A stretch of DNA of 33,788 nt from assembly GCA_903909465.1 (NCBI GenBank), contig CAIVVQ010000176.1, positions 1-33,788 on the forward strand, given 5' to 3'. The notes beneath the pieces were generated by a model that searched no databases, had not been told where the DNA came from, and was given only the letters and a program-made list of their open reading frames with translations. This DNA comes from an uncultured Opitutia bacterium (GTDB lineage Bacteria > Verrucomicrobiota > Verrucomicrobiia > Opitutales > UBA953). Below, piece after piece: positions 1 to 3,472 of this stretch. Numbering within the stretch: the first letter of the stretch is position 1; the number at the start of each line of letters is the position of its first letter. The translations under genes and the position numbers were made by a program.

Positions 1-1496
1 CCAATTTCAAAAACACCGACGAGGCTCAGTCCGAGTGTGATCATGAGAATGCATGTCAGCAGGACGAAGCCAGGTGACTGCATTTGGAAACCCCAGCCGA
101 GAGAATTGCCGCTGGATTTTAAGGCGACGATGAGCAGGGCGAGTGATAAGAAACTTATAATCACACCCAAGGTGTAAAGTAACCCGTGGATGATGACGGT
201 GCGTCGGGCGGCGCCGGATTCTTGGGTGAAGCCAAGAACTTTAAGTCCAAGCATCGGGAAGACGCAGGGCATTAAATTTAAGAGCACGCCACCACCGAAA
301 GCGAAGATGAGCCAGACGAGGTAGGAATGGGTGGTAGAAGAAGGGCTGGAGTTAGGGGGGTTGGTGGAATGGATGGCGTTAACGATTTCAGTTCCCGTAA
401 GTAACTCGGAGAAAATAATTGGCGACTGATTCGGTTTTAAGAGAACATTGAAGGGGATACCTTCACGTCCGTATTTTTTGAGCTCTTGGGCGATAACTGG
501 ATCCTTCTTGGTCCAATCGGCGTGTAATAGTACGATGTTATTTTGCTGAAGGGCGGCGATGACGTCGGATTGATGGTAGACGCGTTTGTTTACCTGACAC
601 GTCGCACACCAGCGGGCGGTGAAGTCGAGGTAGACGGTTTTACCAGCTGCAATCGCAGCGGCTTGGGCGTCGGGTGACCAGGTGCCCCAATTTAATTCGG
701 TGGATGAGGTGCTCGAGTTGGAAAGCGTGGAACTGATAGCTTTGTTTTCTAACTCGACATGGATACGGCGAAACCTGCCGATGCTATCGGTGGTGACAAA
801 ATAAAGGGAGTCGGATGTTGGCGGCTCAGTCGCGTCAGCTAACGAGAATTTTTTTGTTCCGGCGGAGGATGGTTGTTTAGCGGTAGCCGTTGGACTAATG
901 AAATTCTTTTCGGGAAACCAGACCTGCTGGTATTCGTCGGTCGATTTAACCGTAAGGGTTTGATTACTAACGCGTCCGTTTAAATTAATGATGGGCTGCA
1001 GCTCGGCGTAGAGTTTAGGGTTAAAAGAAACGGCGTTAGCGTCCTCGCCGAGTTTAAGGGTAAGGCTTACGTCTTTTTCCTGCGGGTAGCAGCCGCCTTC
1101 ATTGCATTCTAGCCATTCGGCATGGCCCTTGAGGGTGATGGAAGGTGGAGAGTCTTTAGGGACGGTCGCTTCAAAGATGAGCAAGGTTTCGCCGCTATGA
1201 ACAAAATTAATAACACCACTGAGGTCGAGCAGCTCAGGGCCTGGCCAGACTATTGGGCCGGGTGCAGTGCCCGCTTTATCGGTCCATTTAATAATTGGGG
1301 GTGTGCCGGCGTCGCCGGGATTCTTCCAATAAATGTGATAGTGTGGATCGCACTTAAACCGAAGGGCTAACTTAATTTTTTCTCCCGCAATAATTCTCGG
1401 AGATAAGTTTACTAAATCGACCTCTGAGTGAACGGCTGCGTGCGCAGGTTTTACTAATCCCAAGAGACCAATCAAGATGAGCGAAAGATAGCGCAT
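1..1496 (-). CDS. dsbD: Protein-disulfide reductase, DsbD/ScsB family (partial; C-terminus runs off the window)
   Basis: Not in the ORF track because it is open at the window edge. Manual minus-strand translation from ATG at 1496 gives MRYLSLILIGLLGLVKPAHAAVHSEVDLVNL..., an N-terminal ScsB-like domain (DPHYHIYWKNPGDAGTPP...WLECNEGGCYPQ), a Trx motif (VYLDFTARWCATCQVNK) and the TM motif (GGGVLLNLMPCVFPMLGLKVLGF). Frame checked between the CxxC and the TM motif. Confidence 0.9.
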   Translation of the reverse strand, partial: MRYLSLILIGLLGLVKPAHAAVHSEVDLVNLSPRIIAGEKIKLALRFKCDPHYHIYWKNPGDAGTPPIIKWTDKAGTAPGPIVWPGPELLDLSGVINFVHSGETLLIFEATVPKDSPPSITLKGHAEWLECNEGGCYPQEKDVSLTLKLGEDANAVSFNPKLYAELQPIINLNGRVSNQTLTVKSTDEYQQVWFPEKNFISPTATAKQPSSAGTKKFSLADATEPPTSDSLYFVTTDSIGRFRRIHVELENKAISSTLSNSSTSSTELNWGTWSPDAQAAAIAAGKTVYLDFTARWCATCQVNKRVYHQSDVIAALQQNNIVLLHADWTKKDPVIAQELKKYGREGIPFNVLLKPNQSPIIFSELLTGTEIVNAIHSTNPPNSSPSSTTHSYLVWLIFAFGGGVLLNLMPCVFPMLGLKVLGFTQESGAARRTVIIHGLLYTLGVIISFLSLALLIVALKSSGNSLGWGFQMQSPGFVLLTCILMITLGLSLVGVFEI

Positions 1497-1517: not shown

Positions 1518-1985
1518 CTAGCAACAGCCGCCACCCGGAGTGCATTTTTTGGGAATACAAACATCGGGAGCTAAGCAGTCGGCTTTAATCGTTCCAAGAA
1601 GCACTACGACGTTACCATCTTCAATCACTCTACCAAGGACTGGAAAGGCAGTGAGGAAGGGTAAGTCGCATTCGACTTCCAGGGGGAGGTCGGTTGAGCC
1701 AAGTAAATCGGTGCCGCGATTAAGAATCTCTAAGCACTTAGTGACGTTGACTCGGTGATCGGTGTCATCGGCTGCCCAGAGTTGAAGGCGTGCAGAAACT
1801 TGGGTACGAATGGTACCGCCACAATCGATTAACTTTTTTTCGACACGTGCGACCTCAGTCAAGTGTAGGTGAATAGGGGTGAGACTGCCGGTGGGAAGTT
1901 TGAAGCGCAGTCCGAGCATTGGATAAACTCCGAGCTGACGGCGGAAATCGGCAAAGGTGAGGACAAGGGGTTTATCGAAGCTCAT
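1518..1985 (-). CDS. DUF6428-like protein with Cys-rich C-terminus
   Basis: 155 aa ORF; core FKLPTGSLTPIHLHLTEVARVEKKLIDCGGTIR resembles the remembered DUF6428 signature; tail CLAPDVCIPKKCTPGGGCC. Ends 21 nt upstream of the dsbD start. Confidence 0.75.
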   Translation of the reverse strand: MSFDKPLVLTFADFRRQLGVYPMLGLRFKLPTGSLTPIHLHLTEVARVEKKLIDCGGTIRTQVSARLQLWAADDTDHRVNVTKCLEILNRGTDLLGSTDLPLEVECDLPFLTAFPVLGRVIEDGNVVVLLGTIKADCLAPDVCIPKKCTPGGGCC

Positions 1986-2083: not shown

Positions 2084-3472
2084 CTAACCCTTCAACTGAC
2101 AGGGCAGGAGGGCGGCGTCTTTCATACCGTGGATAATTTTCTTATCCGCTGGGCAGAAGGTTGAGAGGATGCCGGAGATTTCAACGGTGTCGCCATCGAC
2201 AAAGAAATAGGGGCAGAGTCGCACGCGACCTTCGGCGCTGTGAATGCTGCCATCGTTAGCGTAGACTGGATGCGAGATGCGTGAGGGCTTGTGGTACTCT
2301 TGCAGAATGTGGAACGTTTCGTTTTCAGGATCCAGTGCGCGTTCGATCGCCTCGAGCCATTCTTCGCGTGAGACATCGCTGCCGAGGGTGACACTGCGAG
2401 CGCCCCAAGCGGTTTCGTGGAAGCCACTGGCTTTGATGATGAAGTTGCGTTCGCGTTGAGAAGCTTCGGCCAGTTCGGTCCACTCGCGGATGGGTCGACC
2501 GTTGACTTGTGGGGCATGTAAAACTGCCGTGGGTGGAAGGTCGGTGCGTTCGATGATCCAAGTCTTAGGAACGATGCGGAAGAGGGCTTCGAGGTGATTT
2601 TCAGGAAGGTTTTCTTTCCAGAACTCGGCGAGCATCGGGTGATGCAGTAAGGCTAGGCCTAATTTCTCTTCCTGGTAGGCCTTCATCGGTGGCGTCAGAA
2701 TAACTTTACCTGATTCGACCCCATTGAAAATGCCGTCGGCGCCTTTGACATTCGCGAGGTCGAAGAGCTCGAAGAAGCGATAGATGAGGTCGACTTTTCG
2801 TGGAGCACCATCAACCGGAATGAAAGACTCTTCACCCATCTGCATGATTTGTGTGGGATCGACGACGTGGACGTCGTGTCCGAGCGAGCGAAGTTTTTCG
2901 CCGAGCCAATCGAACTCAGGACGATAAGTGGCGGACTCTTCGCTGACAACAATGGCGACGAGTGGGAAGCGATGTTCTGGCGTTAATCGTTTGAGTGCAC
3001 CAAAAAATCTTTCGGGCATGGCGGTGGCGCCGATGAGATTGGGGAAATCCTCAGCGTAGACCTCGTTGAGGTAAGCGGTCAGTCCGATGCCGCCTGGGAC
3101 GCTGTCGAGTTCGGTCATTGTGAAGCCTTGATCCGTGATTAAGAGGTCGGGGCGAAGGACGACAGGGCATTGGCCTTTAACGGAACGGTGACGTCCGTGT
3201 TCGATGAGGCCGGCTGGCTTATAACGATCGAGGTATTCGGAAACCCACTTTGCGTGGACATCGCGATTGCGGAGAATTTTCTTATCGGTGAAGGACCGAA
3301 CGTAGAGTCGTTCGAGCGCGCGGTGGTAACTGAGGCAAGCGGCACCGATAACTTTAAGGTCTTTGAGTTGGGCTTCGGAGATCGGCCAAGGCTCCGGCGA
3401 AAGTTTCCAGATTTTCTCAGCGAACAGGGGCGGCTCGAGTAGCTTGCGACGGAGAACTTCTTGGGAGGGCAT
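2084..3472 (-). CDS. Conserved hypothetical protein, possible circularly permuted ATP-grasp / glutathionylspermidine-synthase-like fold
   Basis: 462 aa ORF beginning 4 nt after the prfB stop; segments TELDSVPGGIGLTAYLNEVY, KVILTPPMKAYQEEKLGLALLHHP and FIIKASGFHETAWGARSV...FHILQEYHKPSRISHP resemble ATP-grasp-type elements. Confidence 0.6.
   Translation of the reverse strand: MPSQEVLRRKLLEPPLFAEKIWKLSPEPWPISEAQLKDLKVIGAACLSYHRALERLYVRSFTDKKILRNRDVHAKWVSEYLDRYKPAGLIEHGRHRSVKGQCPVVLRPDLLITDQGFTMTELDSVPGGIGLTAYLNEVYAEDFPNLIGATAMPERFFGALKRLTPEHRFPLVAIVVSEESATYRPEFDWLGEKLRSLGHDVHVVDPTQIMQMGEESFIPVDGAPRKVDLIYRFFELFDLANVKGADGIFNGVESGKVILTPPMKAYQEEKLGLALLHHPMLAEFWKENLPENHLEALFRIVPKTWIIERTDLPPTAVLHAPQVNGRPIREWTELAEASQRERNFIIKASGFHETAWGARSVTLGSDVSREEWLEAIERALDPENETFHILQEYHKPSRISHPVYANDGSIHSAEGRVRLCPYFFVDGDTVEISGILSTFCPADKKIIHGMKDAALLPCQLKG

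Follow-up and report, generated by a model that had tools for sequence, protein, structure and literature searches.

Rotated domain orders among DsbD/ScsB-type proteins of the Opitutales

A gene divided between two contigs

The window, by which we mean the whole 33,788-nucleotide stretch analyzed here (contig C176, 1–33788, from an assembly of 190 contigs totaling 1.45 Mb), begins inside a gene of the DsbD/ScsB type. The contig ends at position 1 and cuts the gene: its 5' 498 codons occupy 3..1496 on the minus strand, where the ORF reading of the window gives a single open frame from 1496 to 3 with no stop, and the rest lies on another contig of the same genome. A probable signal peptide (MRYLSLILIGLLGLVKPAH; 1440..1496, recognized by eye) precedes an ScsB-type alpha domain (DsbD_N, Pfam PF11412, 57.8 bits; 1059..1388) that carries the redox motif CNEGGCYP (C-x4-C; 1083..1106), both cysteines of which are invariant in our alignment (A3). 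The gamma domain (Thioredoxin_7, PF13899, 62.2 bits; 432..689) follows ahead of the TM domain, with its active site WCATC at exactly 597..611, and the first helices of the beta domain (TM1 to about TM3-4, PF02683 on the truncated part) fill 3..317. The first TM stretch spans 228–329, with the first intramembrane cysteine motif, PCVFP, at 255..269; the second, PCTAP, sits on the other contig, and orthologues have both. All of these features are on the minus strand.

The first-pass annotation had read from these motifs an order of alpha-gamma-beta in place of alpha-beta-gamma, and that order is borne out: the motifs share one frame, Pfam places DsbD_N at residues 37–146, Thioredoxin_7 at 270–355 and DsbD_TM from 394, and the same order is conserved across the lineage. 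DsbD_TM scores 22.1 bits on the window protein, where the contig end shortens it, and 74.6 bits on the full-length sister L028 (64–75 bits in L002 and L028).

A profile made from complete relatives located the remainder of the gene at one end of contig C47 (L094; 3223 bp), the first 151 bp of which match the window's end (1–151) at 96% identity. The frame there runs on to ...GYLLTSLP* and stops right after TM8; there is therefore no C-terminal thioredoxin, and the second such domain that had been thought possible beyond the window is absent from every orthologue as well. Downstream on C47 are an OmpA-like lipoprotein, a ThiF-rhodanese and a YqgF/RuvX-like gene, in the same order as in L028, the closest relative (83%). 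The 4% mismatch in the overlap suggests a strain mixture in the assembly, so the C47 half may come from a sister strain; window and C47 were kept apart in every analysis.

Two neighbors upstream, both on the minus strand, lie outside the system. A DUF6428 gene whose product has a cysteine-rich tail (CIPKKCTPGGGCC; 1518..1985) lies about 20 bp before dsbD, an insertion confined to the window and the 83%-identical L028. Other relatives have directly upstream of dsbD a gene for a 462-aa protein, which in the window lies at 2084..3472; it precedes rotated dsbD genes both in the genus of the window and in genus g3, is strongly conserved there (about 69–99% identity), and its product matched no Pfam family.

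Rotations of one ring of segments

Three arrangements can be named by what follows alpha: the canonical one is [TM1-6, TM7-8, gamma], rot1, the form in the window, is [gamma, TM1-6, TM7-8], and rot2 is [TM7-8, gamma, TM1-6]. Rotated forms belong to two families, f1 (that of the window) and f2, the latter including rot2. With TM1-6 and TM7-8 modeled separately, segment models assigned 58 loci to alpha-trx-TM16-TM78, 58 to alpha-TM16-TM78-trx and 12 to alpha-TM78-trx-TM16; a wider typing set adds more loci as well as further truncated or alpha-less forms. Every arrangement is a rotation of one ring behind alpha, and no scrambled (noncyclic) order was found among the typed loci. By sequence comparison, then, the segments are homologous, their cyclic order is kept and only the starting point differs, which is circular permutation.

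A survey of bacterial genomes found alpha-gamma-beta at about 45 independent Opitutae loci and alpha-beta-gamma at about 30 more distant ones (other Verrucomicrobiota, Pseudomonadota, Acidobacteriota and others). Within f1 the match from gamma into beta is uninterrupted in 60 genomes and split, as canonical order demands, in 7; in the window itself the match is cut by the contig end. For most f2 proteins the match ran from gamma to the end of TM6 and no further, because the TM7-8 hairpin sits between alpha and gamma; even a TM7-8 model from which rot2 proteins were absent recovers the hairpin ahead of the thioredoxin (E 5e-16 to 5e-6). The linker from TM8 to gamma has a median of 8 aa in canonical and rot2 proteins alike, and rot2 proteins end 2–4 residues past the TM6 model. 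By genus, f2 comprises rot1 (g247), rot2 (g5 and g46) and rot2 lacking alpha (g69).

Some individual loci show further variation. The g69 proteins (L112, L162, L163 and L164) are rot2 forms of about 461 aa without alpha, and stand-alone DsbD_N proteins of about 300 aa are encoded elsewhere in G590 and G131, likewise in other f2 genomes. At L110 (2471–4622) a rot2 gene lies in two frames, alpha-TM78 and gamma-TM16, through either fission or a sequencing frameshift. The apparently short gamma of L044/L167 reflects masked or unknown bases within the gene; no real deletion is present.

The redox cysteine pairs are kept in all three forms. Loops TM1-2 and TM7-8, the two examined that are expected to be cytoplasmic, have a net charge of about +2.6 to +3.1 in each, which is consistent with an unchanged topology; the predicted helices in a model of moderate confidence and these basic loops likewise agree with eight TM segments and two periplasmic ends. 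AlphaFold models were moderate overall (pLDDT 76.7 with pTM 0.52, and 70.6 with 0.39) and too uncertain for domain packing. Structure matches for single domains were 6c29 (ScsB) and 3pfu (DsbD alpha) for alpha, taken from the model of an orthologue, and 2fwe/2fwh and 4ip1 (DsbD-gamma) for gamma.

Outside f1 and f2, the rotated junction was not matched in Pseudomonadota (strong matches in 94 of 349 genomes), in Acidobacteriota (38 of 247) or in the Verrucomicrobiota sample; these surveys are samples of genomes, and rotations could escape in families with weak matches. Many of the genomes are metagenome assembled, and the rotation pattern repeats on many contigs. Loci are assigned here to Opitutae, Opitutales or Verrucomicrobiota by their record titles. 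Three loci titled Polynucleobacter, Akkermansia and Bacteroidetes (L004, L036 and L068) encode proteins that group with Opitutae or Methylacidiphilales and probably come from mislabeled MAGs.

History of the rotations and competing accounts

Trees of gamma, of the TM domain, of the concatenated dsbD segments and of rpoB all keep f1 and f2 separate, with canonical families between them, and nest the canonical proteins of genera g2 and g4 inside the f1 clade. In the gamma tree, the middle thioredoxin of rotated f1 proteins clusters, on starred branches (96 and 98), with the one that canonical f1 proteins carry at the C-terminus; it is therefore the moved gamma and not a new domain. On the concatenated tree, the starred branches require the rot1 label to have changed four times or more. 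The AU test, which presumes a group named before the tree was seen, rejects a single clade of all rotated proteins (p 4e-5) and a single clade of f1 rot1 proteins (p 2e-42). Within f1, rotation may have been gained several times, or have reverted.

A P-II gene lies 3' of both rot1 and rot2 genes in f2, within 9–78 bp and on the opposite strand, with Amt behind it; in g2, a TatA gene stands just upstream of canonical L097, L098, L119 and L120 and of rotated L043/L165. These common neighbors indicate that the switches happened in place. In two groups, then, one gene position holds one rotation in one genome and another in its sister.

We consider it very probable that these genes encode a thiol-reductant transporter of the DsbD/ScsB type in which the beta-gamma portion has been circularly permuted more than once, with topology and electron path unchanged. 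An artefact of frameshift, chimeric contig or assembly could be suspected at a gene cut by a contig end with a continuation only 96% identical in its overlap, but the same order recurs in complete orthologues of about 680–720 aa on independent contigs of up to 660 kb, and about 60 independent family genomes, many on long contigs, have the unbroken gamma-into-beta match; for the lineage, this account is refuted, and we give it next to no credence. It is also very unlikely that domain shuffling produced the order, through loss of the C-terminal gamma and insertion of an unrelated thioredoxin before the TM domain. Movement of one soluble domain would look identical if the window's form were the only one considered, but the sister position of the f1 middle thioredoxin to canonical f1 gamma largely refutes this, and in rot2 the TM7-8 pair moves together with gamma on the same 8-residue linker as in canonical proteins. 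Nor is the middle thioredoxin an accessory duplicate, as each protein has a single gamma, which falls with the canonical ones in the tree.

Two further accounts, each improbable though not negligible, touch the number of events and the job of the protein. A single ancient rotation, or canonical and rotated gene copies side by side in the Opitutales ancestor, might have been followed by reversion or differential loss; rot1 does occur in both f1 and f2, and parsimony by itself leaves room for a chain of losses. The canonical families that lie between f1 and f2 in gene and rpoB trees speak against it, as do the rejection of one rotated clade and the single-copy state of strong hits, which holds in almost all f1 and f2 genomes. 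The other account keeps the architecture and changes the task, for example to a dedicated transporter for metal or arsenic tolerance, and draws on the structure of alpha, which matches best to ScsB, a protein with a metal resistance annotation, on a weak ArsG similarity in the TM part and on the adjoining DUF6428 gene. Yet no locus besides the window and L028 has DUF6428 beside dsbD; at the others the flanking genes are housekeeping ones, TatA or P-II/Amt. The ArsG model reaches 29 against a cut-off of 200, and most of these genomes have no other strong DsbD. Function as a working reductant relay is the most likely reading, one drawn from these comparisons.

Repeated permutation would have arisen when the beta-gamma cassette was duplicated in tandem and in frame and parts of the two copies were then deleted, at the native locus and at least twice in Opitutales. 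In a sample of about 190 typed DsbD ORFs the beta-gamma-beta intermediate expected from this model was not seen, and very long frames (810–1270 aa) taken up as candidates proved canonical, some with alpha twice. Tandem alpha domains, in the order alpha-alpha-beta-gamma, characterize class-level relatives with frames of about 1090–1160 aa: L208 (75–3548), L209 (1988–5269; f29, g84) and L210 (1964–5224). More tentatively, and with somewhat less than even confidence, we suggest that permutation has occurred repeatedly in place and possibly reverted, the canonical order of g2 and g4 being re-derived, that in f2 one rotation passed to the next by transfer of a TM helix pair, and that chain order is neutral and reversible. 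If so, this would be a folded machine indifferent to where its chain starts.

A relay possibly indifferent to chain order, and its known relatives

Electrons would take the route known for E. coli DsbD, from cytoplasmic thioredoxin to the TM cysteine pair, then to gamma, to alpha and on to envelope substrates. In the E. coli protein, alpha and gamma are periplasmic, beta has eight TM segments, and electrons flow from thioredoxin through beta and gamma to alpha (PMC4460558). All three domains have homologues in the rotated proteins, with like cysteine pairs; the differences are that gamma lies between alpha and beta in the window protein and that TM7-8 and gamma precede TM1-6 in rot2. With both ends of the TM domain predicted to face the periplasm, a gamma shifted from its C- to its N-terminal end should leave all three modules in place. 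Gamma would thus attach on the periplasmic side at either end of beta, and helices would move only as a pair (TM7-8); since the breakpoints fall in linkers presumed to be periplasmic and helices change place in even numbers, each rotation should be topologically permissible. On this reading only the start of the chain has moved, and the order alpha-gamma-beta found in the window would mirror the electron path. The "rearranged electron relay" of the first-pass annotation accordingly goes too far: what is shown to change is the covalent connectivity, all cysteine pairs are kept, and the modules would stay where they were.

Judged by homology of its parts (alpha, TM core and gamma with CxxC), the protein belongs to the DsbD/ScsB superfamily and departs from the canonical architecture in domain order. 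ScsB of Proteus mirabilis (PDB 6c29), which shares the longer N-terminal alpha region, is the best match in both structure and sequence; it differs in gamma/beta order, and no scs neighbors were seen here. CcdA consists of the TM domain alone (PMC4460558). It and stand-alone DsbD_TM proteins share the homologous TM core, whereas here alpha and gamma are fused to it and the TM7-8 pair is present, which sets the rotated proteins apart from CcdA. The top NCBIfam score, for the rhodanese/DsbD-fusion selenoprotein TsoB, comes through DsbD_TM and stays at 119 bits against a cut-off of 805; no rhodanese domain was among the Pfam hits of the rotated protein.

The nearest precedent is VKOR and DsbB, membrane disulfide enzymes related by circular permutation, for which duplication and deletion of helix pairs was proposed (PMC4555120). 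That pair was presented as the first circular permutation of helical membrane proteins, and its direction could not be worked out (PMC4555120). VKOR and DsbB are two ancient, distant families; the Opitutales case is closer in time, involves close relatives with common gene neighbors and has three states, and a soluble domain takes part in its rotations, unlike theirs. No description of a permuted DsbD was found in the literature searched. With orthologues at one locus in related bacteria that differ by rotation, outgroups at hand, and both a TM helix pair and a soluble domain on the move, direct tests become possible of the duplication-deletion model, of whether helix pairs act as modules, and of how far a redox relay tolerates changes in chain order.

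Current annotation is likely to conceal such cases: the Pfam DsbD_TM model matches TM1-6 only, so the label "DsbD" from profile annotation hides the rearrangement. The NCBIfam DsbD model (NF001419) gives the rotated protein 109 bits in two stretches, below its cut-off of 330, and canonical L097 also falls below, at 100 bits.
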